Assembly: GCA_026874595.1 (NCBI GenBank)
Contig: CM049319.1
Coordinates: 14,411,601 to 14,475,600 of the forward strand
Length of the DNA stretch: 64,000 bases
Direction of reading: 5' to 3'
Source: Sipunculus nudus
Lineage: Eukaryota; Annelida; Sipuncula; Golfingiida; Sipunculidae
Positions 1 through 63,400 of this stretch are shown here, one piece after another (position 1 is the stretch's first letter; every line of letters begins with the position of its first letter). Below the pieces are notes generated by a model. The model ran no database searches. It was not told where the DNA came from and saw only the letters and a list, made by a program, of their open reading frames with translations. The position numbers and the translations under genes were made by a program.

Positions 1-840
1 AATAACCAGTGTGTATTCCCCTCTTTCTTGATGGTATTTATATTGAGGTTCAGGTTGTGTGTATCATCCTTTACTCTTTTCAGATATAGGGGATTATACA
101 CATTTTTATAAGTTATTAGTGTCAAGGTCTCAATGTATTTAATGGAAAAAAAATTCTGTACAACTTCATTTAAAGTATGGAAATTCTGATTAATAATGCT
201 TGGTAGCTCCAGAATTATGATTTTGTTTTCTGCAGTTGTGCAAAAGGAGATCTATAATATAAATAGAAATAAAATTCAAATAAATATTAAAGAAATAATC
301 CCAGGAATATTCATTAAATATTGGTATAATAATAGCCTAAAATCTCTTTTTCTTTTTAACATGCAGGCAAATTACGGTTTTGTAATTTAGCCTTGATTTT
401 TCACTATTATGGATTATTAGTATTAAGTATTAGTACATTGTATTTTGTTGCCTCTTGTGGCTGTCAGATGGGCCTCCATCAGAAAGCTCTGTAGACTCTT
501 GTATATCATTAAAGGAGAGCATTTGATCCTTTACATGGTCAGTTTATTTTCATGAGTAAACTGTGTATGTTATCTGTATGTATGAATAGTACCATGTGAA
601 ACCCCACCCAGATAATTAAGACAAATAAAGTGGCCATGGTGTGATTTCCTGATTTCTCCTCAGTCTCACTCACCTGTACCAGGGCTTCAAGTTTACCTGT
701 GTATTCTGTAACTGAGGTATTTGTTTTGTCATTTACATATTTTATTTTGAAGGATTTATTCAGTGTGCCTGATTTCATTGGAACTCGTGGGAGTATATGC
801 AGATTTTTATAGATACCAGGGTAATTTAAATTTATCATTT
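1..840. repeat. Segmental duplication, copy 1 (empty-site copy)
   Basis: This stretch is closely similar to 7149-9300 in the same orientation, from the run GTGTATT..CCTC..TTCTTGATGG through to TTCAGTGTGCC near 765. The second copy carries a 1.2-kb insertion that is absent here (uninterrupted junction at 39-41). It probably continues before the window. Confidence 0.85.
674..768 (-). other. Exon-like unit, copy a of five
   Basis: Open minus-strand segment with residues VNDKTNT at its centre, ending in CAG followed by GTGAGT, a good splice donor. An AG acceptor candidate precedes it. Related units lie at 2085-2170, 6942-7025, 9165-9260 and 9977-10065. It may be a duplicated exon or simply part of a repeat; no host gene is recognised. 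Confidence 0.35.
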
Positions 841-1276
841 TCTTATGTTTTTGTCACGTCTAATGTGAAACTACATCTGTATTATCAATTTCATTATTTC
901 AATGTCTAATATTTCCCATCTTTCTTAATTGGTCATGTTTCATCATAGGCATGATTAGTGTTTTGTATTTACATAGATGAAATACAGTGAAATTGTATAC
1001 ATTTTAATAGAGTTAATATGTACAAAGGCATTAGTTAGTATACTAGGGGTATGGATACTGATCTTTGAGTGGTCCAGAAATATGATTTAGTTATTCTAGG
1101 TATAAAGTGCAGCATTTTTGCAATTATTGAAATACAAATAAAATAAAATTATACAATACCCTGACGAAAAATATTGCTTTAGTAAATTTTGTTTTCACCT
1201 GAGAATAATTTTGTACCAACTAAAGCTATATTTAATCATCATCATATAGTGAACCTAAGTTTAGATCTGTATGATG
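841..1276. other. Intronic sequence, nothing recognised
   Basis: AT-rich sequence inside the first visible PIGA intron. A minus-strand ATTAAA at about 1229 is the only possible poly(A) signal downstream of the gene at 1320-1667. I see no exon. Confidence 0.5.
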
Positions 1277-1300
1277 TGGGTGGCCTTGAAAAAGGCCTTT
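1277..1300 (-). promoter_or_regulatory. Histone-type 3' stem-loop
   Basis: Read on the minus strand, GGCCTTTTTCAAGGCC (1297-1282) forms a 6-bp stem closed by a TTTC tetraloop. It matches all 16 positions of the metazoan histone 3' stem-loop consensus GGYYYUUHUHARRRCC. The 5' flank is AAA and the 3' flank is ACCCA, both typical. It lies 22 nt after the stop codon of the 1320-1667 gene, the usual distance in replication-dependent histone mRNAs. No clear purine-rich downstream element (CAAGAAAGA type) follows. Confidence 0.85.
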
Positions 1301-1319
1301 AGGTTTACAGATGACTGGA

Positions 1320-1667
1320 TCAGTTCCTGTCTGTGGCCGGTACCCCTGCAGTGCTGCCCTCTAGGAACTTGATCTGAGCCTCGAGGAAGTCTGCTCTGGT
1401 TGCTATGGTGTGGGTATACTCATAGAACATGCTCTTAACACTGTCCAGCACACACAGTCGTATTCTCAAGTTGTTACAGGTGGCCATCTGGTGACGGTCG
1501 TTTGCTCGCCTGTAACGTACAGCGAGGTCTCTCTCTGTGCGGTCAAGCAGCATCATGTGATCACACGCTTGGTTGAGCTTGGAGCTTGCGACAACTAACT
1601 CAAACTGGAGATGATCAAGGTCTGTCTTTTTATAAGGGTGGAACCTCTTAGCTGGTGACAGAGACAT
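1320..1667 (-). CDS. Intronless 115-aa protein with histone-style gene architecture
   Basis: A single open frame of 115 residues, from ATG at 1667 to TGA ending at 1320. I do not recognise the family. The protein looks mostly helical: a basic N-terminus (AKRFHPYKK), then two long segments rich in L, M, R, K, D and E (about residues 16-55 and 58-103) that could form a helical hairpin or coiled coil, then a polar tail. It has no histone-fold signature, lysine-rich tail, signal peptide or membrane segment. The flanks define a compact gene: TATATAAA 56 nt upstream, two CCAAT boxes further up, and a histone 3' stem-loop 22 nt past the stop. I infer a replication-dependent, non-polyadenylated mRNA. 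It lies antisense in a PIGA intron. Base composition is more balanced than the surrounding intron, consistent with coding. Confidence 0.8.
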   Translation of the reverse strand: MSLSPAKRFHPYKKTDLDHLQFELVVASSKLNQACDHMMLLDRTERDLAVRYRRANDRHQMATCNNLRIRLCVLDSVKSMFYEYTHTIATRADFLEAQIKFLEGSTAGVPATDRN

Positions 1668-1722
1668 GTTTGTAACATATCAATATCAGGAGGCAATAAT
1701 GAAGACTAGCAAGCAGCTCAGG

Positions 1723-1730
1723 TTTATATA
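1723..1730 (-). promoter_or_regulatory. TATA box of the 115-aa gene
   Basis: TATATAAA on the minus strand, 56 nt before the ATG at 1667. This would place transcription start about 25-30 nt before the ATG and give a very short 5' UTR, as in histone genes. Confidence 0.75.
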
Positions 1731-1759
1731 AGGTGAGCAGATCATCAAACAATGATGAA

Positions 1760-1800
1760 ACAGCCAATCATAGTTCAGGATGAGTGAGCACAGCCAATCA
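1760..1800 (-). promoter_or_regulatory. Pair of CCAAT boxes
   Basis: CAGCCAATCA occurs at 1761-1770 and again at 1791-1800 (ATTGG on the coding strand), 30 bp apart and 31-78 bp upstream of the TATA box. This spacing is typical of NF-Y-driven, S-phase promoters such as those of histone genes. Confidence 0.65.
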
Positions 1801-2084
1801 CCATCAAGTATGTCAAGGCAGAGCCAAGCAGTGCCCAGTTTAGCTACAAGTCTTATCCTCAAACAGGAGGCATATTAGCCTTAAATGGCTGAATAATTTC
1901 TCATTTTCACAAAATTTTGTTGTTTTAAAGAAAATTCATTTGATCTCTCCTCTGGTCAGTTAGGGCCTTTATCCATATGGCTTTGTGCATGTTATCTAAC
2001 AGTGCCCTGCCTTAAGTGAAACCCCACCCACCTCTGTAAGGTAAACACAGCTGTTACTCCTAATTACTCTTTGACCTGACTTCC

Positions 2085-6790: not shown

Positions 6791-6941
6791 TGGTCTCTCA
6801 CAGGGTCATTCAGATTGCTTTCTGTGTCTTTGACATTGTGTTATTAGATAGCACAGTACCCTGCCTGATGTGAAACTCTGTCAGGTAAACAGAGTACCTG
6901 GTCAAAGTGTAGTCTCCTAATTACTCATTAATCTAACTTGC

Positions 6942-7025
6942 CTGTACCTGGGGTGTACTCCATGTTATTGGAGATGTTTGTTTTTTTTTCATTTACTGTT
7001 TCTCTTGTGATGATGTTCCTTGTTT
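6942..7025 (-). other. Exon-like unit, copy d of five
   Basis: Minus-strand segment with ETVNEKK and TNIS motifs, aligned with the other units. The donor position reads CAG-GCAAGT. A net indel near the end puts its last part out of step with the other copies, so it is probably degraded. Confidence 0.3.
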
Positions 7026-7189
7026 CTCCAGCATTCAAGAAGTAAATATTAAATACTGGTAAATTTAATCAGTGCCCAGCTATTTTAAATTTTGTAATAT
7101 GTTCTTACATGTCCTTAAAAATAACCTCCTACTTTCGTTTTACCATTTCAATAACTAGTGTGTATTACCCTCATTCTTGATGGTATTTA

Positions 7190-8409: not shown

Positions 8410-9164
8410 TATATTGAGGTTCAGGTTGTGTGTATGATACTTTACACTTTTCAGATATATGGGATTGTTCACATTTTTCAAAAGTTATAAATGTCAAGGT
8501 CTCAGTATATTTAATGGAATTAATAAAAACTGTAAACAAAAGTTTGGACATTCTGATTCATAATGCTTGGTAGCACAAAACAATTTTGTTTTCTGCAGTT
8601 GTGCTGCCATTTTGATGCAGTTACTAAAAACAGTATGATGAATTATTATATAGATTTGTGGAATACTTGAGAAAATTAATACAATGATTTTGATATAATA
8701 AGCAACTCTGGTAAAAAAGGAGATATATAATTTGAATATAAAGTTAAATTAAATTAAAATAAATATTAAAGAAATAATACCGGAATTTCATAAAATATTG
8801 GTATCATAATAGCCTTAAAATCTCTTTTTTTCTTTTCGTCATACTGGAAAATTACAGTTTTGTTCTTTAGCACTGATTTTTCACCAGTATGGATTATTAG
8901 TATAAAGCATTTGTACATTGTATTTGGTTGCCTTTTGTGTCTATCAGATGGGCCCTCATCCTCAGAAAGCACTGTTGACTCTTGTATATCATTTAAGGAG
9001 AAAATTTGATCCTTTACTTGGTCAGTTTAGTCCTCTTATCATTAAGAGTTGAATGTGTGTGTTATTTGTGTTTATAATAGTAACCTGTGAAACCCCACCC
9101 AGATAATTAAGATAAACAAAGTGGCCATGGTGTGATTTTCTGATTTCTCATCAGTCTTGATCAC

Positions 9165-9260
9165 CTGTACCAGGGCTTCCGGTGTACCTGTGTAGTCAGT
9201 ACCATAGGTGTTTGTTTTGTCATTAACAGATTTTACTTTGAAAGATTTTTTCAGTGTGCC
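9165..9260 (-). other. Exon-like unit, copy b of five
   Basis: Counterpart of copy a within the segmental duplication, with the VNDKTNTYG motif. The donor position reads CAG-GTGATC, weaker than in copy a, and no acceptor AG is visible at the same place. Confidence 0.35.
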
Positions 9261-9300
9261 CATTTTAATGAATTTAAATGAGTATACAGGAATTTTTATA

Positions 9301-9820
9301 GGTCCTAGGTCCTATTAAAATACAAATTTAAAAAAGTTATACAGGTTTAAATAAGAAAATATGCAGGTTTGATGCCATTATTATAGTTTCTTGGAATTAA
9401 AAAGGCAAAATCTCACAACCCTTACTTAAAATTCACTAAAGGTAAAATTAATCTAGTAAAATATAACCTTTCATCAGGAAGAAGATACATTATATAAATG
9501 AATAAAACAAATTAAAATATAAAAAAAATAATCAGATGAATCAATTATAATTAATATTTGCATTATATGATAAGTATCTCACTATATGTTCTATTTTCAT
9601 TATATTTTCATACTTTTAAGAAAATTGTCAAAAAAGACAATTAATAATTCAGGAGGCTCCAGTTTTCCCCCCACTTCTGCTGAATGGCTTTTCACCTTTA
9701 TATATACAATGTGGTGTAACAGATGTATTATATATGTGAACTTTGGCCTTCACCTTGTAGTCATCATTTGTTTAAAGAGAGCTAAAGAGAGTATGGTATA
9801 GACTTGTTTCAGGAAATTAT
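9301..9820. other. Intronic sequence, nothing recognised
   Basis: Very AT-rich; no exon or element boundary that I can support. Confidence 0.4.
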
Positions 9821-9976
9821 TTGATCTTTCATTTGGTCAGTTTAGGCCTATTTATTTGCAGCTTTGACCTTAAGCAAACAGAACAGTACCCTACCTGCTG
9901 TGAAACCCCAACAACCTGTGTTATGTAACACAGCAGTCACTGTGTGATCTCCTTATTACTCTTTGATCTCACTTAC

Positions 9977-10065
9977 CTGTACCTCGGTTTCAGGTGTGTT
10001 GTTGATTTCACCTGAGATGTTTGTTTTGTCATTAACAGTTTCTTGTTTGAAGGTGTTATTCAGTG
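9977..10065 (-). other. Exon-like unit, copy e of five
   Basis: Open minus-strand segment with ETVNDKTNISGE, ending in GTACAG followed by GTAAGT, an excellent splice donor. Similarity to the copy at 2085-2170 continues about 130 bp past the donor, so the duplicated unit includes flanking non-coding sequence. Confidence 0.4.
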
Positions 10066-10271
10066 TCAAGTATTTCCCATATTATACAGATTAAACACAT
10101 ATAAACTGGTGTACATACTGTAGTATATAATTATGATTATGTATATATTTAATTTTATTCAAGTTTAATATCTGGGAAACCTATATGATTTATATATTCT
10201 TCTAGTATTTTCACTATATATAGTTAAATCAGGATTTTGCTTACCACCTTCATGCATGTTGCAGTGTTTAT

Positions 10272-11601: not shown

Positions 11602-14600
11602 GTAAGCTTTGATGAATTTGACGCAGCATAGCAGACATAGCCTAGAGTCAGGGTATATGTAACATTATAAAAGTACGGTGGGATCTACCAATCATGAACA
11701 TTTGTAGTTTATAGGGGTCAATGAGTTTATTTCTTTATCTATATTAGGGTAAAATATTTTGTAGGTTGTTTCTCATAGGTCCCATTAAGTGAAAAACCAT
11801 TGATTTCAATTTTTTCTTCTTCCTTATATCTTTATTCTGCCAATTTTCTGTTTGTGCTAGATCTTGAATATGGCTGTTTATCAAAAGCTGAAATTTGAAC
11901 ACAATATAGTCTGCCCATTGCACATTGGCTGCCCATTGTGCAAAGGGTAAAATTCAAAATGTTAATTCTTGTGTATAAGGCAATAAATAATTTAGTTCCT
12001 CTTTACTTGCAAGAGCTTATCCACAGTTATACTCCATTAAGAAGCCTTCGGTCAGCAGCTAAAAACTTACTGGTCGTGCTTTTTACCAAATCATCCTGTG
12101 AACAAATTCAGGCATTCAGTGTTGTTGGCCCGAAACTGTGGAATGACTTACCAGATACTCTAAGAGAAGCCACCAGTCCCTCAGAATTTAAAAGTAAATT
12201 AAAAACATATTTGTTCATGGAAAATTTTTATGCCTAGTCATTTTGTATGATGCTTTATACTATTGATAGTGAAATGTTTGAACATTTTAGTGGAATTATG
12301 AAAGTTTAAGCAGATAATTGATCTATTGATTTTTATATATCTTATTGAATACTGTAAGCTTCTAAATGTAATATTTTAGACAATTGGACTTTTAATTTCA
12401 TATTATTACAATAGTATGTTTAATTATTGCTGATTGTATTCTAGTTATGTAACAGCGTTTTAGAGCATGTATCATCATGGATTTTTCTCTTTATAAAATA
12501 AATAATTATTATTATTATTAGTCCAAGGTCATATATTTGCACCTGATATTTATTTTTGACCTTGACCATATTCTCAAGGCTGTATACTAGACTGTAGCAG
12601 ATTTTCTATTATTTCCCACCTCTGTCCATGTTTGTGCTAGATCTCCAATATGACTGTTTTAAAAAGGCTTCACTTGCCATAGCTTGCGTACATCTACCTT
12701 TCTTATAACTGAAGGATTTTCTTGGTAGAAAGAATATAAAACTACTATTACACAACCGCAGGCCATCCTGTGATCCTACTTTTTCCTAAGTTTTTGTTTT
12801 GGTCCTGTTTTTTAGCTCAGCTGACTGTAAGTCAACTGAGGTATAGGAATGGCGCTTTGTCCATCGTCCGTCTGGTCTTCTGCCGTCTGGTCATCTGTTA
12901 GCAGGGCACAAATTGTAACTGCTGGTCCTAGACACTTCTGAGTGAACATCCAGGGAGGTCAATAAAAAATCTCCTGGGAAACCTGAAATTAGGTCACTGC
13001 GACCTATATCCACCTAGCTACGGGGCTTGTAAATACCCCCCAAATTAATCAAAAATTTGATACAAAACCTCCAATATCTTGATAATTAATGCATGGATTG
13101 TCATGAAACTTGCCTGGAATATTGGCCATGACTAGTTTTGTCAGTTTCCAAAAAGTGGTGGCGCCACCTGTATTTTTTCTAATTTTTACGGATATTTTTC
13201 TATTTTTTTTTTTCTATAAAATAACAACAATCATGTCAGTTTTTCAGCTATGATTCCATCTAGTGTCTCAAAACCTGGTGTGTTTATTGATCACAAGTGG
13301 ATGCCCTATAGTAATCACCCTGTCTGTCTGTCTGTACATCTGTCTGTCTGTCTGTCCCTCCGTCCCTCCACACAAATGTGTTTCAAGATGATAACTCCAG
13401 GTTGGAGAAAGAACCTATATGATATTTGGGTCATGAGGTTAAAGGTCAAGGTCACAAGACTCATTAAAAAAAATTATGGCTGCATTTTAAGCCAAGTTTT
13501 TCATCCCAAACTTTCCATTTTGCACATTTAGCTGACTTGCCAGTATAGGGAGAGCATTAAGGAAATTTGGGGTCACAAGGTAAAAGGTCAAGCTCACAGG
13601 GGCCATCTATACACAAATTAGTTTCCAGATGATAACTCCAGTTTAGTCTGACATATTGGTTTCAAACTTAACTTATATATGGCTCACCACTAAAGTAAGA
13701 ACCCTGTCGATTTAAGGGTCCAAAGGTCAAGGTCACAGGACCCTTTTCTTTAAAATGAATGTGAATGCATTTCAAGCCAAACTTTTCATCATAAACCTTT
13801 CATCTTCAAGATATTACTCACCTGCCAATAGGGGAAGATTCTTTTCGATTTGGGGTCATAGGGTCAGAGGTCAAGGTCACAGGGCCCATCCATTCACAAA
13901 CTAGTTCATGGATGATAATTCTGCTTCTGCGAGACAGATTGGCTAATCCAGCTAATTTTACGAAATCTTTTTCTCTGTGACTTCAGTGTAAGTAATAATA
14001 TAACTGCAGCAAAATATGTATCTCTCATGAAATATATTTTGACTATTAAAATCATATTTCCTTAACTGCAGTACTAAAAAAAAACATCCATCTATAACAG
14101 TTAATGGTGATTTCTGGCCATAAGTAACTTTAAATTGTTGTCACACCATGCAACTCAAAGTGTTTTGCCATCTGTTAAAAAATTCATAAAGATCAGCAGA
14201 TATTCAAACATGCATCATATTGGCCTGTCAAAAATTGAGCTAGAAAAAATTGTAAAATAGTCCACCTTTTTTGTCGAAGCCTGTAAATATGTCAGGCCAA
14301 TGCTTTGGGCCAGAATCACAGACCACTACAGTTCATCTATATACAGAGGCTGCTATTTCTTTTGTTTATTTGCAGGTGCTTGTCCAGGGAGATATCTTCC
14401 TGAACATGTCTCTGACCGAGGCTTTCTGTATTGCTATTGTTGAAGCAGCCTCATGTGGGTAAGTTAATCATAAAGTATCTGTAAAACAGGTTTTCACAAT
14501 ATTAAACCGTCATGAATGTTAAAGATCAAGTTCTTATACACCCATCTTTGACAGGACATATTATGGTTTACTCACCGTCCGTCCGTTAACATTTAGTGTC

Positions 14601-24600: not shown

Positions 24601-25375
24601 GAGGCTCCACAAAGTGGCCGGGGCATATATAGTTTTACCCATGTCCGTCATTCCGAAATCAAGCAGTTGTACGGATTTTTTCGCAATGCCTGCAGATATT
24701 GGCCTGATTTATGGTGTGTGGGCAGATAATGACCAGTTTCAGTCAGAGTCCGCGTTTCCGAGTTGACATACTTTTGACTGTATGACGGTACCTGAACTTA
24801 AAATATTTAATAAAAAATAGAAATTTTCATAACAAGTGCACATGTACGGCCTTTTTTTCGCAATGCTTGCCGATATTGACCAAATTTTGGGTGTGTGGGC
24901 GTATAACGACCACTTACAGATCGAGTTCGCATTTTGTCCCGGTTGACCTTCTTTCATTCTGTCCTTCCGTCATTCTAAAATCAAACAGTTGTACGGACAT
25001 TTTTTCCGCAATTCCTGAAGATATTGGCCTCATTTATGGTGTGTAGGCAGATAATAACCAGTTACAGATCGAGTTCGCGTTTCGTCCTGGTTGACTTACT
25101 TTTGACCGTATGACAACTCCTGAACATAGAAAATTTCATGAAAAAATAGAAATCTTCATGATAAATGCACATGTACAGACTTTTTTTCGCAATGCCTGCA
25201 GATATTGGCCTTATTTTTGGTGTGTGGCTGGATAATGACCCAGTTCAGACGGAGTTCACATTTTGTCCTGGTTGACTTACTTTTGACCATAGAAAATTTT
25301 ACAAACTTTAACAAATAAATGCTCCAGGCGGGGGCATTCGTATCGTTCCGACACATCTAATTTTTTCTGTAATTA
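24601..25375. repeat. Tandem-repeat element with four ~180-bp units
   Basis: Four diverged units carry TTTTTTCGCAATGCCTGC, AGATATTGGCC, TGGTGTGTGGGC and TTCGTCCTGGTTGAC-type runs (about 24670, 24850, 25000, 25185). It is bracketed by GGGGCATATATAG and GCGGGGGCATTCG. It has the same layout as the other tandem-bearing families but a different sequence. Confidence 0.6.
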
Positions 25376-25881: not shown

Positions 25882-28650
25882 CTTCAAAATCAAATGATCA
25901 GTTAGAATACAATGTGAAAAGGTACGGTGATTGATTCAGACACACTGCGCAGAGTCATATTCTTAAAAGCACGACTCTGCTGTTAAGGGCTTGTGGGTAA
26001 ATTTAAGAAAATCTTTCCCCACAATGCACTGGAGCCTCTAAATGACCTAGGTATATAAATATGGCGAAGAGGGTAATGTAGTCCGTTAAAATAAGTTGGA
26101 TTTTTTCAAGGCAAATAACATGAACATGAATATATATATATTTTTGTGCATGAAGGACTCAATGGAATAAGTTATTTGCTTACAATATAAATTATTCAAC
26201 TCAGTTTAATAAATTTAATATTTTGTTACATAAAATTTACCCGGAATTTTTCAAATGACCAGGGTAAGATAAACTTTACAGTTTAAAGCGCTTTCGTCAC
26301 GGTAAGCAACATAACATAATTCTTACCTTTCCCTGAGCCACCAGCTCGATCACGTGAGCCATGTCCTCTTTTCTGCCAACCAGCGACCCGGTAATAGTTA
26401 ACATCTGAACCGGAAACTGACTGGACAAGACGGAGTAGGTCCCGGTATAAAGCCCGACACTCACGATGATAGCGCCCTATATTTCAAATAAAATACATAA
26501 ATTACGTTCATGAACCCAAGATTTTATGCTTTATAACTTGAGAGAACATGACTTGTTTTAATACTTGTATCTAATTTCCCCCCCCCCCTTTTTTTTGGTT
26601 GATTAAGTTGATTATTTGAATAAGTAAATACGCTGGTTTTACCTGCGCCACGGAGCCAACTGTCGTTTGTACAGTGATTTCACTTCCTACGAAATCTACC
26701 ACAGCGTGGAAGCCCTCAGGCTCGGCGGCCCTCGTTGCGGCTATGTTCTCCTCCATGGTGGCTGTAAAGGAATTTCTAAACTAATTTGATCCAGAATGGC
26801 ATTTCTGTCCGATTATGCATCATAGATTTTCCTTTAATATTTCAATATCTGGCTCTGTCTGTCTTCTTGTTGCTCTGACTAAGTTGTCTGTCTCTGCCTC
26901 GCCCTTCTTCTTCTATAATTAATCGATACAAATTCACAAAGCTAAACCATCCAACCCCCCCCCCCCCCCCTTCCCGTCTCCGTGTGAAAAGGCTCCTAGA
27001 ATATATTTGCCACGAATCGTACAAGATAACATAGGTTTTTGAATAATTCTAGATATCGAACGTCCTCACCTTTTTTGTCCCATAGAATTGTCTGATCAGC
27101 TCCTGCCTCGAGGGCAGACTGAAACTTGGACTCCTGTGATTAAAATCAAATATAAAAAATACATAGATATATAGACTACTACTCATATTTTTATAAAAAA
27201 AAAAAAAACTCCTTTCTTAAACATTTTTTAAATTCCGTTAGAACAAAGCGTTATATAAATTTAAGCTATACACTTCTCTCGTGAAAAAAAAAACGAATTT
27301 AAATAAAAAAAAATAAACTAATAACACTAAAGGAAGCACGTGCAACCAGAACGTTACATCCTGTGGTAGAATTTATATATTCAAACAAATGTATCAATAA
27401 ATACCAACTGCCTCTCTCTCTGGATAAACTCACTGATATTTCAGCCACATAGACTTTTGTATTAGACGGCATGGTTGCCTTGGCGATCTGGATTCCCCAC
27501 AGACCAAGTCCCCCTGCCCCAACGATCAGCAGCGCCACCTCGTCTATAAAAAATTAACTAATTCTTAAGACTCGAAATTTCGAGCAATCAAGAATGAATG
27601 TCGATCCATTTAAGGAAATATGGAAATATCCATATCATACAATGAAACCTTGGGTAAAAGATTACGCCTAAAAATGTAAATTCAAGGGAAAGAACTAGCA
27701 TGTCCACAATGCTTTTAGCAATATACTGCTTCCAGCTCTTGATGGTATATTAAAATTGGATTAATATATCTGGTACAAGGAAAAGAAGGAAGCTGGGTAA
27801 AATCCTTAAGCAGTGGTTATCCACAGCAGTCATTATAAAATGCTATATCTCCTTCGCTTTAACTGCTGCTTTATTTAGTATGGTTTTCCGGGTTTCACTG
27901 CCAGGTCTAGTACAGTGCATAAATTGTAATCTAACAAATAAGAGAGGAGTTACGCGGGTTTAAAACTAGAAGATGAATGCACAAATGGTTCTTGATCGCA
28001 TTCTTGGACCCGTCGGTCTCGGTCTCGATACGGTCTCAAATCCTATATATGGTCTCGGTCATGGTCTTAGATTTGCAAGTACCGACTAAATTACTGGAAA
28101 GGGTTTATGTTTTTATATATAATATATAGTATATTATATAATAACAACAATAGTGACACCGTGCATGTCACGCCAAGCATTTTCTGCCTTGAAAAATTCT
28201 TACTGGTTTTAAGCAGTAGGAAATACCATTTTATGAATTCCATATGCTTAACTAATAACTCATTACCCATGGAGTTGGCAATCTGTTCCACTGCAAGTTT
28301 TGCCCGCATGATGGCGCTGTAGGCAGTGATACCGCTGCAGGGGATTACAGCCGCCAGATCCATGGGGATGACGTCAGGCACGTGACCCAAAACGCTCAAA
28401 TCTTGTACAGCCAGGTATTCCTGAAAGCTAAGCGTAACAGAATATACATTAATGTATTAATTGAAACCTCGCTTGCACTATACGCTTATACATCAAATAC
28501 AGCCGCGACTACATTTATCTGCAAAATTCCGTTAAATAATATTATGTTTTGAAAATGTATTTTGTTTTTTCATGATAATGTGAAAGTCGACTCAGATAAG
28601 CATAAACACTCGCACACATAAACAGATATACACACAAATATATATATATA

Positions 28651-33964: not shown

Positions 33965-35030
33965 ATGGAGCTGTTAGATCTGCAAAAGGCTTTCGACAAA
34001 GTAGATCATAAAATAATGTGTAAAAATATGGAAGCCTTCGCACTAGATGTATCTGTAAGTTGATTTATACCTCATAAATAACAATAGAGTGCAGATTGTT
34101 AATGTAAATTGTTGTACATCAGAGGAGAAAAATGTGACTTTTGGTGTACCACAGGGATCAATTTTGGGGTCACAAATGTTCTTAATGCATGTAAATGATA
34201 CTGAAATGTCTATCAGTTGCAAACTTCTACTATATATTCTGATGACTCAGCATTATTAATCGCAGGTAAAGACAGGTCAGAAATAGAATCAAGGTTAAGT
34301 CGTGAATTAGAGAATGTAAATAAGTGTTTAATTGATATTAAATTATCTTTACACTTAGGCAAAACGGAGGCTCTTTTATTTGGCAGTAAAAGAAATGTGC
34401 ATAATGTAATTCTAAATGTAAATTGTAATGATCTGAAAATAACTTGTAAATATTTGGTTGAATATCTTGGACAAACCTTAGAAAAATCTCTGTCAGATAA
34501 TAATAATGCAAGGGATATTATATCAAAGTGTATAACAAGGTTAAAGTTTATGTACAGGTCTTGATAAACAAACCAGGAAAATACCATGTTACTCTCTAAT
34601 ACAATGCCATTTTGTTTGGGCATGCAGCAGCTGGTATTCATCACTAACAAATAGTTATAAAAAGATATTACAGATATTGCAAAACAAAATGATAAGATTT
34701 GTATTAAATAAGGACAGGTCACGTGTAGGATTTGTTGAATTTTGTGAAGTCAGGTGAACGAATGTGGAAAATCGGGTCACTCAGTTGAGATTAAATCACA
34801 TGTATAACATTGTTAATGGGCATCCATCATTATATCTCCAAGATTAATTTTATAATATAAAATTACCACATAGATATACAATAAGATCGTCACAATATGC
34901 ATTTAAATGACCTAGAGTTGGTGCAGGAGGCAGTCAGAATTTCTTTTTTACAGGTATTAAACTATTGGATTCTTTCCCTGTAGATATTCTTCTAAAAATA
35001 CCAGTGCAAGTTTTAAGAAAGCGACCTGAT
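33965..35030 (+). pseudogene. Decayed LINE reverse transcriptase
   Basis: Broken frames show the order of a non-LTR reverse transcriptase: LLDLQKAFDKVDHKI (33968), GVPQGSILG encoded at 34144 with frame breaks, IYSDDSALLIAGKDRSEIES (34232, the YADD-type active site changed to YSDD), KLSLHLGKTEALLFGSKR, NKMIRFVLNKDRSRVGF, RVTQLRLNHMYNIVNGHPSL, and FFTGIKLLDSFPVDILLK. Multiple stops and indels show it is inactive. The N-terminal endonuclease is absent. It lies between two divergent genes. Confidence 0.8.
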
Positions 35031-43484: not shown

Positions 43485-46400
43485 TAATATGTACACAACA
43501 TAATCTCTCTTGTATAAAATATAGAATTATATACATCTTTCTTTAAAATATTTTTTGTGTCCTCTCTAACAAATAATACGTATTATTTTTATCGCGATCT
43601 TTCTCTTTTAGAATATTACTTTGAATTCTCTCTGTCATAAAATCATATTGATCTCTCTCTCTTATAAAATTATATTGATATCTCTATCTGTTTTTCTCTC
43701 TCTCATATAATGTAACTTTGATTTCGATCTCTCTCAATCTCAAAATTGCTCTCATGAAATAAGAAATATGCATCGGAAAAGGATGAGTAAATAATTGTTC
43801 CCCTTCAGTGAACATGGCTATCGGCTACATTTGATAAATCAGTTACCCCGGTGTTGTTTCAACAACTAACAGGTCACGGTTACTCCTAATTACCATCCCA
43901 TTGATCCCCTAATTAAGTAGAAACCCCGATATCAAAATGTTTCATTTTGATGTCCATAGACTGTGTTGGAATACATGGACCGCTAAAATATATTCATTGT
44001 ACAGATACTATTAATTTTAAAAATGTTGTATCTCATAATATTATATATCTTCATGGTACTATGGAACGCTTAAATAATATATCGAACTAAAATACAACTG
44101 AACAGTGTGTTATGTTTGTGACACATCCAGTAGCCGACCGTTGATTATTAACTGAAGATCCCAAGATTATCCGTAAACAGAATAGTTCAGTTGATTCAGA
44201 AATTTTAATTGAAATGTATCAGTAATAGAAGAGTGCTGATTAATGTGCATTTCAATATTCATCACTTAATACTGCAGTGTGCAGTTTTTAGCTCAGCTGA
44301 CTGAAAGTCATCTGAGCTATAGCGATCACTCTTTGTCCGTCGTCCGTCTGTCCGTCTGTCCGTCCGTTAACCAGGCACAAATCGTAACCGCTGGACCTAG
44401 AACCTTGTAACTTGGGATTCTGAGAGGTCCATAAAAAATCTCCTTGGAAACCAGAAATTAGGTCTCTGTTACCCATATCCTTTGAGCTATGGGGCCCCAA
44501 AGTACCCCCCAGAAAAGTCAAAAATTTCATACAAAAACTTCAATATCTCATTAACTACTTGACTGATGGTCATGATTTTTGGCATACATATTGATCATGA
44601 GATGTTACATCACTTCCTGAAGACTGGTGGCGCCACCAGTATTTTTCGATTTTTTACGAATTTTTTTCTCTATTTTTGAGACCTTTAAAAATGTGAACAT
44701 CTGTTAACAAGGCACAAATCATAAAGACTGGACTTAGAATCTTCATTCTTGACACACTGAGAGGTCCATGAAAAACCTCCTTGGAAACCAGAAATTAGGT
44801 CTCTGTTACCCATATCCTTTGAGCTATCGGGCCCCAATATACCCCCCAGAATAGTAAAAAATTTCATACAAAAACTTCAATATCTCAATAACTACATCAC
44901 TGATGGTCTTCATTTTTGGCATACATATTGATCATGAGATGTTCGATCAGTTCCTGCAGACTGGTGGCGCCACCTGTACTGTTTGATTTTTTACGATTTT
45001 TTCCTCTATTTTTGAGACCTTTGAGGATGCTGTCATCTGTTAGCGTGGCACAAATCGTAACGACTGGACCTAGAATCTTCATTTTCAACAGACTGAGAGA
45101 CCTATGAAAAGTCTCCATGGAAACCAGAAATTAGGTCTCTGTTACCCATATCCTACGAGCTATGGGGCCCAAAATTACCCCCCAGAATAGTCAAAAATTT
45201 CATACAAAAACTTCAATATCTCATTAACTACATCACTGATGGTTATGATTTTCGACATACATATTGATCATGAGATGTTTCATCAGTTTGTGCAGACTGG
45301 TGGCGCCATCTGTATTTTTCAATGTTCACAAATTGTTTTCTCCATTTTTGAGACCTTTAAGGATGTAGTTATCTGTCAACAGGGTACAAATCGTAACGAC
45401 TGGACCTAGAATCTTCGTTCTTGACACACAGGGAGACCCATGATAAGTCTCCATGGAAACCTGAAATTTGGTCTCTGTTACCCATATCCTTCGAGCTATG
45501 TGGCCCCAAAGTACCCCCCAGAAAAGTCAAAAATTTCATACAAAAACTTCAATATCTCATTAACTACTTGACTGATGGTCATGATTTTTGGCATACATAT
45601 TGATTATGAGACGTTACATCACTTCCTGCAGACTGGTGGCGCCATCTGTATTTTTCGATTTTTTACGAATTTTTTTCTCTATTTTTGAGACCTTTAAAAA
45701 TGTGAACATCTGTTAACAAGGCACAAATCATAAAGACTGGACTAAGAAAACTTAATTCTTGACACACTGAGAGGTCCATGAAAAACCTCCTTGGAAACCA
45801 GAAATTAGGTCTCTGTTACCCATATCCTTTGAGCTATCGGGCCCCAAAGTACCCCCCAGAATAGTAAAAAATTTCATACAAAAACTTCAATATCTCAATA
45901 ACTACATCACTGATGGTCTTCATTTTTGGCATACATATTGATCATGAGATGTTTGATCAGTTCCTGCAGACTGGTGGCGCCACCTGTACTGTTTGATTTT
46001 TTACAATTTTTTCCTCTATTTTTGAGACCTTTGAGGATGCTGTCATCTGTTAACGTGGCACAAATCGTAACGACTAGACCTAGAATCTTCATTTTCAACA
46101 GACTGAGAGACCTATGAAAAGTCTCCATGGAAACCAGAAATTAGGTCTCTGTTACCCATATCCTACGAGCTATGGGGCCCAAAATTACCCCCCAGAATAG
46201 TCAAAAATTTCATACAAAAACTTCAATATCTCATTAACTACATCACTGATGGTCATGATTTTCGACATACATATTGATCATGAGATGTTTCATCAGTTTG
46301 TGCAGACTGGTGGCGCCACCTGTATTTTTCAATGTTCACGAATTGTTTTCTCCATTTTTGAGACCTTTAAGGATGTAGTTATCTGTCAACAAGGTACAAA

Positions 46401-49400
46401 TCGTAACGACTGGACCTAGAATCTCCGTTCTTGACACACAGGGAGACCCATGATAAGTCTCCATGGAAACCTGAAATTTGGTCTCTGTTACCCATATCCT
46501 TTGAGCTATGGCACTCCAAAGTACAGCTCAGAATAATGGAAAATTTGATACAAAAGCTAAAGTATCTGAACAACTAATGCAGAGATAACCATAATTGTTT
46601 GCATGGATATTGATCATGGAGTGTTTCATAAGTTTCTGCAGACTGGTGGCACCACCTGTATTTGTTCGTTTTTTTTTACGAAATTTTTCTGTATTTTTGA
46701 GACCTTTAAAGATATGAACATCTGTTAACAGGGCACAAATCATAAAAACTGGACCAAGAATCTTCATTCTTGACACACAGGGAGACCCATGAAAAGTCTC
46801 CATGGAAACTTGAAATTAGGTCTCTGTTACCCATATTCTTTAAGCTGTATGGGTCCAAAATACCCCCCCCCCATGAATAATGGAAAATTTGATACAAAAA
46901 CTGCAGTATTTCAATAACTACAACACTGATGGTCATGATTTTCGGCATACATATTGATCATGAGCTGTTCCATCAGTTTCTGCAGACTGGGTGTGCCACC
47001 TGTATTTTTGTATCCGCCAAAACGAAGTTTTGCGGATACTATGTTTTTGACCGAGTTCCTCAGCCGTGGCGGCGTTCGTTTCCAGAGAGCTCCTCAGAGA
47101 CTAATGGACCGATTTTTCCCAAACTTACACCTATTATCGGGTCACATTTGAACTGGTGCCTAACCAATTTGCATTGACCTCTGACCTTTCCTCTCTATCC
47201 AGTGTCCATTTGTGGGTCTGTTTCCACTCATAAACCCTCATATCTCGGGAACCGTTTGACCGATCAGGAAATAAAATTGATACAAATGTAGCCCTTGGAT
47301 TGCTTTATAACATACACAAAAAATGGTGGCCCCACCTGTAACCATGTTTGCACAGTGTCCATCTGTTCATCTGCCTTGGGTTAAAATCACTCATATCTCT
47401 GCAGTGAATTGACTAATTCACCTGAAATTCATCATGTGTATACATCCAGGATAGCTTTCTTGATTTTATGACAGGTGGCGCCACCTATGTTCACGTTCAC
47501 GCTGATGACATCCAAGCTTATATCTCGGGAACCGTTTGACCGATCAGGAAATAAAATTTATACAAATGTAGCCCTTTGATAGCTCTGTAACATACACAAA
47601 AAATGGTGGCGCCACCTGTAACAATGTTTGCACAGCGTCTGTCTGTTAGTCTGCCGTGGCCTAAAATTACTCATTTCTCTGTAGTGATTCGACATAACTG
47701 CCTAAAATTTTGCAGGTTTATACATCGTGGACAGCTTTCTTGATTTTATGACAGGTGGCGCCACCTACATTCTAGTTAACGCTGGACACATCCAAGCTCA
47801 TATCTCAGGAACCATTTGACCAATAGGGCCAAAATTGTGCATGTGTTTAGATCTCACATAGGTCTTTATCATACAAAAAACTGGAGGGGTTACCTGCAAA
47901 GATTTTTGCACGGTGTTTGTCTGTTTGTCTGCCATGGGCAAAAATCGCTCATATACATGTAGTGGTTTGACTTTTCTGCCTAAAATTTTGCAGGTGTATA
48001 CAACTTGGACAGATTTCAGGATTTGTGGTAGGTGGCACAACCTACATACACATTTAGGCTGCAGACATCCATGCTAATATGCAACATACCTCACTCTATT
48101 TCCCCTTGCCACTCAATCCATGCCTCACTATCCGATTTTGGCAGATACATGTAGTCACTTGTCGGTTACCCGTATTCTAGTTTTAAAAGTTTACACATTT
48201 TTCTCTATTTTTGAGATATATAAATACAGACTAAATCTTGGCCTGTTGGTTAATCTGTTTGATGCTTCAGTTGAATGGGTATATACTACCATTCTGGTGA
48301 TAAAATTTCCTTTTGTGAATCTCTTCCCAGTCAGCTGAGCGTCATGACCCATGGGTCACTTGTTTTTATTTGTAAATATCCAACAGAACCATTTTCACGC
48401 CCGCTCTAATTAAAATAAAAATATACAATTAAGGATTTCGTTCCACGATCAGTCTAACATTCCTTTTACATATATTGTCTTATCGTATTTGTGCTTCCAC
48501 AAAGAAAACACAAGGTAAAATGACCATTAATATCGGTTTAATTTGTCTGAGGAAGCCTGCCTTTCTCATGTTGACCTGGCTGTGTATTGTCAGCCGACTT
48601 GCCGACTGCCGGGCGTGGGTGCAGTCGGTCGGCCATGACGCATGGGCCCGCCAGGCGATTGCCGAGTCCTGCTTTGCACCTTCAAATTCCAGCCTGAGAT
48701 ACAACTATTTCCTCCTGTTCAACATACAACATTATGAATTTTAGTAATTAGCATGTATTTCATGCATTATATCCCCAAACCATCTTCATATTACAGTTGT
48801 ATTGACATAGTCGGCAAACTGGCGTTTCGGCAAAAAGGAATCGGCATGGTGGTAGTTGGCATTCCGGTATTCGGCAATCCGGCATGCCGGCAACCCACTT
48901 CGAACATACATATCATCTCAATTTGTGCAGGTCCTAAATTTTTCAGAATCTGTCTAATACGACCACCTGTCTGTTATGACCAATTGTGCCCAATCCCATG
49001 GGTGGTTGCCATTAGACAGGTTCAACTATATTTATTGATGTAATATATATGTATATATAAATATAGTTTGGATAGTTTTGCTTTGTGACTATGAATTTTT
49101 TTTTCAATTGCAGCTGAAGGTTTGTACATTTGGCCAGTTGTTTGTTCAGAATTCTTTTCCTTTATTATTTTGTTGTTGTAAACCCTTCCCTAATGGCACA
49201 ATCCTTTTCAATCAGACACAACCATGTCTATATCATAATTAATTCACATGAGACCTGTCCGGACAGATCAAATCATGAAATCTTCATGTGCAATTAATTA
49301 TGAAGGTTTTTGTTTAACTAATGAGTGTTTTTTAAATAACACACTTTATTCCGTCTCATATGCTGCCATCATGAGTTGCCAACTTTTGTCTATCATCTGT

Positions 49401-61861: not shown

Positions 61862-63400
61862 AACAAGTGATCCATTGGTCATGATGCTCAGATGAATTTG
61901 ACATGTATACAGGTGATGCATGTTTTTATAATTGATGTTATGATCTGGTCAAATATATTTGTTAAGGAACCTTGAACATTGGGTAGAATGATTTCCAGAG
62001 TGCACAAAATCATGTTCTATGCCCATAATCTTTAGAAAATAGGTAACAGCAAGAAGATTTTAGAAGGAACTCATCAGATGCCAAGTTAGAAGTTTCTACG
62101 TCAAACTGCTGTGACTTTTAGGGTACTCAAATCATGTATTTCACACAGTTCACAGAATATAGGTCACAATGACCTTATTTTGGATGTCAAAGGAGACATT
62201 ACAATGACCTCCCTTCATATTCAGAATGATATTTCATTTCTAGAGCCAATACTTAAGGTTTTATGACCCCTTTCTGGGTGCTCAAAATTAGGTTTTCTGC
62301 TTATAGCTCAAATAATACAGGTCACATTGACCTAATTTCAGGATTTCAAAGCAATTGCAAAGGACCTTCCCGGATGTCATATTTGAAGGTCTAGGGCCAA
62401 CATTACAGTTTGGTGCCTTGCCTGACTGTCTGGGTGCTAATATTCATATTTTTGGCCATCTGCTTGCAGAATATAGGTCACCATGACCTACCTTCAGGTG
62501 TCAAAGGAGATTTAGCTAGAAACTCCTTAGATGTTGTGTTCTAAGATTCAAGGCCTGACAGTTCCAAGTCTTGCCCTGTCTGACTGTCAGGTTGTTAAAA
62601 ATCATGTTTTTGGCCAGTCGCTCGCAGAATATAGGTCATCATGACCTGATATTAGGTTTCCAAGAAAATTTGCCCAAGACTTCCCTGGGTATTACATAAG
62701 AAGATTTTAGGGCTAACGGGTTCAATTTGTGCACATCTGACTTCCAGGGTGCTCAAATCAGGTTTTTTTCTATAGCTCACTAAATATAGGTTACAGTGAC
62801 CGAATTTTATATTTCCAAGGACATTTACCAAGGACTTCCCTGATACATCAGAAGATCCTAGACAAAATGGATACCAGTTGTGCTCATTCTGACTGTCTGG
62901 GTGCTCAAAATCAGGTTTTCGGCAAAAAGCTCGCAGAATATAAGTCACCATGACCTAGTTTCAGGTTTATGAGGAGTTTTTGCCAAAGACCTCCCTGGAT
63001 GTACAGTTGAAGTTTCCAGGTCTAATGGTTAAAATTTAAGACTATCTGACTTTCAGGGTGCTCAATTCATATTTTTTTCCTTTAGCTCACAGAATATAGG
63101 TCACGGTGGCCTAATTTCATGTTTCCAGGGACATTTATCCAGGACCTTCCTGAATGTCACATTAGAAGATTCTACACCAAATGGATACAACGTGTGCCTT
63201 GTGTGTCTCTCTGGGTGCTCAAAATTATGTTTTCGGCAAGTATCTCGCAGAAAATAGGTCACCATGACATCATTTCGGGTTACTGAGGAGAATTGTCCAG
63301 GACCTTCCTGGATGTACAATTAAAAGTTTCAAGGTCTAATGGTTACGGTTTGTGCCCTGTTATCGTCCACACTGCTTCATTTCAAGGCCTCAAAAATAAA
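61862..63400 (-). mobile_element. Family A-related element with eight ~157-bp units
   Basis: The end ACAAGTGATCCATTGGTCATGATGCTCAGATGA is the reverse complement of a family A-type 3' end. Eight units follow at about 157-bp spacing, each with GCTCGCAGAATATAGGTCACCATGACCT-like and GACTGTCTGGGTGCTCAAAAT-like runs. Minus-strand frames across it are incidental. Confidence 0.65.

Follow-up and report, generated by a model that had tools for sequence, protein, structure and literature searches.

The minus strand of the window, by which we mean the whole 64-kb stretch of DNA analysed, carries a 115-codon open reading frame (ORF; 1320..1667) set within the anatomy of a replication-dependent histone gene, an assignment supported by the sequence elements and their spacing; the encoded protein shows no detectable similarity to histones and is predicted to form a helical hairpin. 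Animals normally reserve this promoter layout and 3' hairpin for histone genes; a gene ending in the stem-loop is familiar, and what is new is the non-histone product. We consider the chances evenly balanced that the locus is an intronless, lineage-specific non-histone gene which uses the replication-dependent histone expression programme. Read along the minus strand, on which all of its elements lie, the locus consists of two inverted CCAAT boxes, the TATA box TATATAAA, an initiator-like TTCATT, the ATG (1667), the stop codon (1320), the stem-loop and ACCCA, in that order.

An earlier note on this DNA had described two CCAAT boxes flanking the gene; two are indeed present, although both lie upstream of it and are inverted relative to it. 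The distal box (1794..1798; ATTGG on the gene's strand, within GATTGGCTG) and the proximal box (1764..1768; ATTGG), 30 bp apart, sit in the window's only two occurrences of CAGCCAATC (1798 and 1768), and the reverse complement of this sequence is absent from the plus strand. CCAAT and TATA boxes are included among human core histone motifs in PMC1794435. The TATA box reported previously was recovered as TATATAAA at 1723..1730, with the ATG 63 nt downstream, and TTCATT (1698..1703) has its A, the presumed transcription start, at position 1700, the TATA box beginning 30 bp away. A transcript running from about 1700 to 1277 would be 424 nt long, made up of a putative 33-nt 5' UTR (1668..1700), the 348-nt coding sequence and a 3' UTR of 43 nt; an mRNA of this size with short UTRs has the format of a replication-dependent histone mRNA. 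Among the 108 ORFs of at least 50 aa that begin with ATG in the window, 11 had a suitably placed TATA box, 4 had two CCAAT boxes and 1 had the hairpin; the 115-aa ORF was the sole one to combine all three (1/108), by promoter and hairpin criteria that were chosen after the gene had been seen.

The stem-loop was evaluated with cmscan against Rfam, which bore out its histone-type identity narrowly: RF00032 (Histone3) matched over its full length at 1257..1302 on the minus strand with 35.3 bits and an E of 1.5e-6, a small margin of 1.3 bits over the gathering score of 34. This was the sole Rfam match at the gathering threshold in the 64-kb window, and more permissive settings produced no second RF00032 match at E<=1 within it. 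Histone stem-loop cores follow the consensus GGYYYUHHUHARRRCC; the core GGCCTTTTTCAAGGCC (1282..1297) agrees with this consensus at 16/16 positions, begins 22 nt after the stop codon and is followed by ACCCA (1277..1281), the same counts as had been reported previously. The consensus core occurs once in the window versus a mean of 0.07 in 100 shuffles (at least one match in 5/100), and the core together with its AAA and ACCCA flanks, likewise present once, appeared in 0/100 shuffles. A looser definition of the hairpin also gave a single occurrence, which by itself is not significant (mean of 0.65 in 40 simulated windows). The 26-nt hairpin RNA folded into a 6-bp stem and a 4-nt loop at -9.0 kcal/mol (z -2.53), a stability equalled in 4/200 shuffles.

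Between the promoter elements and the hairpin lies a single open frame, intronless as judged from the letters, where a 115-aa minus-strand gene had been proposed. Its G+C content of 0.506 was reached by 0/1274 sampled 348-bp windows (mean 0.355), and its third-position G+C is 0.59. These compositional values, the 1/108 count and the confidence of the AlphaFold2 prediction described below argue for the ORF as a gene; its length proves nothing and is by itself not significant, because similar or longer open frames occur in the window (other stop-to-stop frames of 119-178 codons). A Fickett-type coding score was given no weight: the 119-codon stop-to-stop version of the frame ranked 1/55 (1.15), but the part from ATG to stop scored 0.996, under the second and third frames (1.08 and 1.01), and a frame shift did not reduce it.

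In order to gain insight into the product (pI 8.9), its structure was predicted with AlphaFold2 without an alignment, yielding a two-helix hairpin (helices 14-57 and 61-105, of 44-45 residues) much as had been guessed from the sequence. The five models had pLDDT values of 84.4, 83.7, 57.0, 36.5 and 31.2, three of them poor; a control 115-residue open frame from the window gave 40.6 versus 84.4 for the ORF, a comparison that involves one control only and in which helical sequences are easier to predict. The earlier statement that no histone fold is apparent held up: there was no Pfam histone match, nothing was found at E<=10 among PDB sequences, alignment scores to five histones fell within the range of shuffles (p 0.22-0.99), and reading of all six frames by eye revealed no histone-like stretch in 1200-1800. 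On these negative results a histone origin of the coding part was rejected. The only Pfam line for the protein, DUF6284 (13.8 bits versus a cut-off of 27.4, E 0.061), was taken as chance; ESCRT-III, prefoldin, ING and other helical-hairpin families gave no Pfam match above cut-off, no family did, and the fold matches were generic. VIA-align and Foldseek retrieved many unrelated hairpins, with identities of 5-19% among the best 50 of each program; no histone was among the best 50 matches listed by either, and none of the Foldseek matches listed reached E<=0.001. Solved antiparallel hairpins (a BBSome subunit, the designed TMHC2_E, prefoldin, the Rad50 hook, CHMP3 and p85 iSH2) display the same common arrangement, with no relationship shown.

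Searches for homologues were likewise negative. A mainly prokaryotic, viral and metagenomic protein collection with little animal sequence returned 2 candidates, and an X-padded search, which admits longer proteins, returned 143 from a collection poor in animals; none of either set was at E<=10. Pattern matches to the protein in viral contigs (12) and in a mainly non-animal collection of genome contigs (33) were not confirmed, and NCBIfam and PHROGs gave no match. Histone-hairpin patterns were found 0 times in the genome contigs and 0 times in the viral contigs, indicating that these collections contain little animal histone DNA. Since the collections are mainly prokaryotic, viral and metagenomic, the absence of homologues says little about animals; it does mean that there is no evidence of selection on the ORF.

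The gene occupies a block (821..1928) whose flanks are duplicated at 8410-9309 and 9811-10056, while the gene itself is not. By BLAST, 39-241 and 242-820 align with 8410-8604 and 8715-9309 at ~82% identity, and 1929-2161 aligns with 9811-10056 at 73%. No counterpart of the promoter, coding part or 3' part rose above shuffles at 9310-9810, and a decayed gene copy there was rejected, since in local alignment 51 of 200 shuffles did as well as the promoter joined to the 5' UTR, 199 as well as the coding part, 32 as well as the 3' part and 82 as well as the promoter by itself. The only BLAST match between the gene block and 9310-9810 was an AT-rich stretch of 31 nt downstream of the gene (1125-1155 to 9313-9343, E 0.01). 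We reasoned from this gene-less paralogous segment that one copy acquired the gene or the other lost it. The ORF is present once in the window (its best match elsewhere has an E of 1.2). Replication-dependent histone genes usually, although not always, occur in clusters; no further convincing histone gene was found in the window (best tblastn E 0.22 in 64 kb, the gene lying 1.3 kb from the window edge). Eleven inverted-repeat pairs were found in 200-2600, counted with no chance control; the arms enclosing the gene were either only 12-14 nt long or matched at only 73% over 30 nt, and none qualified as a clear terminal repeat.

The earlier note had also held that this arrangement is normally restricted to histones. 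Among the literature matches listed, drawn from a library with few subscription papers, none described a histone stem-loop on a protein-coding gene other than a histone gene. The hairpin itself has a published exception: root-knot nematode Cg-1/Tm1-HH transposons have a histone hairpin, without obvious coding capacity, and before Cg-1 the hairpin was known solely from histone transcripts, according to PMC3169594. Those elements resemble the present locus in having the hairpin outside histone genes and differ from it in that theirs lies between terminal inverted repeats, whereas here there are an ORF and a promoter and no clear terminal repeats. Metazoan replication-dependent histone genes are alike in their small intronless ORF, CCAAT and TATA boxes, short UTRs and a hairpin with ACCCA soon after the stop; unlike them, the present gene has a product without detectable histone similarity, no purine-rich downstream motif and no convincing histone gene as a neighbour in the window.

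The weak point of histone-type processing lies past the stem. The major cleavage, as cited in PMC6303110, is 5 nt past the stem, which would place SLBP-directed cleavage here after ACCCA. No purine-rich U7-type motif is visible downstream, six downstream-element motifs, which may not match this species' U7, gave 0 occurrences in the 82 nt past the stem, and 45 nt past it there is an ATTAAA (1231..1236, minus strand) that could serve as a fallback poly(A) signal. These features favour a real gene with mostly polyadenylated mRNA, for which the hairpin would be a vestige or a minor alternative 3' end. Neither the missing motif nor ATTAAA is decisive, because in the bivalve Lucina purine-rich elements were detected near the hairpin in some histone genes only (PMC6210712) and poly(A) signals also follow genuine histone hairpins, in both human and Drosophila (PMC1924863); moreover, ATTAAA is generally expected to be common by chance in AT-rich DNA, and the stem and both flanks match the consensus, which leaves a mostly polyadenylated mRNA distinctly unlikely. 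A chance open frame next to chance promoter-like and hairpin-like sequences would be compatible with frames of such length elsewhere in the window and with the frequency of the loosely defined hairpin in simulated windows, but the Rfam E-value, the single ORF among 108 with all three features and the flanked hairpin in none of 100 shuffles make coincidence improbable. Least probable of all is a histone diverged beyond family recognition, for which the histone-gene shell itself speaks; the protein has no Pfam histone match, aligns with five histones at the level of shuffles and is predicted to form two helices of 44-45 residues, which is not the histone fold.

The duplicated surroundings bear on two further explanations. 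A stray histone unit (orphon) may have retained promoter and stem-loop around a coding part that was exchanged or arose anew, in which case expression may be histone-like and the product young, perhaps without a selected function. A complete histone shell around a coding part without detectable relatives, in a block that one of the two paralogous segments lacks, is consistent with such a capture, but no sampled part of the window is as rich in G+C as the ORF, its best predicted fold is confident, and no remnant of a histone frame was found by alignment with five histones or by eye in six frames; we regard this origin as unlikely, if still of appreciable weight. The same duplicated flanks, only one copy of which encloses the gene block, together with the nematode Tm1-HH precedent (PMC3169594), could point to a histone hairpin carried by a mobile element or a duplicated repeat. 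The short or poor enclosing inverted repeats, the lack of a second ORF copy in the window and the gene-like order of promoter, ORF and hairpin speak against this, and we hold it to be improbable.

The non-histone gene under histone-type control, our preferred reading, draws on the RF00032 match, a strict core with flanks rarer than chance, the CCAAT/CCAAT/TATA/initiator series at histone-like spacing, the unique combination in 1/108 ORFs, a local G+C peak, a pLDDT of 84.4 versus 40.6 and the lack of histone similarity. Against it stand the 1.3-bit Rfam margin, the missing motif in 82 nt, ATTAAA, the three poor models, the lack of a homologue in the collections searched, the gene-less paralogous segment and the lack of another convincing histone gene in the window. 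From its anatomy, the gene may be under control of the histone type: RNA polymerase II would initiate close to 1700 at a CCAAT/CCAAT/TATA promoter of the NF-Y and TBP type, a short pre-mRNA would be made, and SLBP would bind the hairpin, with cleavage after ACCCA and expression timed to S phase. The small, slightly basic protein would form a coiled-coil hairpin that probably associates with itself; it may act in chromatin or replication and may be needed in proportion to new DNA or be stored in oocytes. We give somewhat less than an even chance to the further reading that this is a first member of an SLBP regulon beyond histones, namely a non-histone mRNA with a stem-loop end, processed by SLBP, lacking poly(A), coupled to replication and coding for a helical hairpin protein of a new kind, associated with chromatin or replication. 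If so, the complete layout around a non-histone gene would be a break with the histone-only rule, the histone programme could be borrowed for another protein made in proportion to DNA, and the locus would make it possible to test directly which elements of the shell are enough to couple expression to replication.

Several other features of the window were recorded. Near both edges of the gene block, 829-854 and 1895-1920 form a 26-nt direct repeat (77% identical) that is AT-rich and possibly due to chance. A module of ~130-190 bp is present in five diverged minus-strand copies (631-766, 2016-2188, 6850-7043, 9085-9257 and 9898-10066), with the histone-type gene between two of them; BLAST pairs are 64-73% identical, higher inside the 242-820/8715-9309 duplication, and in several copies one frame encodes much the same peptide (around VNDKTN), with stops in some, as a repeated exon or a decayed repeat might. 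Tandem arrays lie at 44366-47009, 47240-48080, 24644-25283 and 62270-63355, with periods of ~336, 280, 329 and 158-314 bp, respectively. An open frame at 28094-28456 (minus strand), possibly an exon, has a weak match to zinc alcohol dehydrogenase (best PDB sequence, E 0.025) and no Pfam match at E<=0.01. By eye, 11899-12234 and 34205-34561 (both plus strand) resemble pieces of LINE-type reverse transcriptase ORFs; the former has no Pfam match at E<=0.01 and the latter a sub-threshold match to HTH_61 (E 0.0018).
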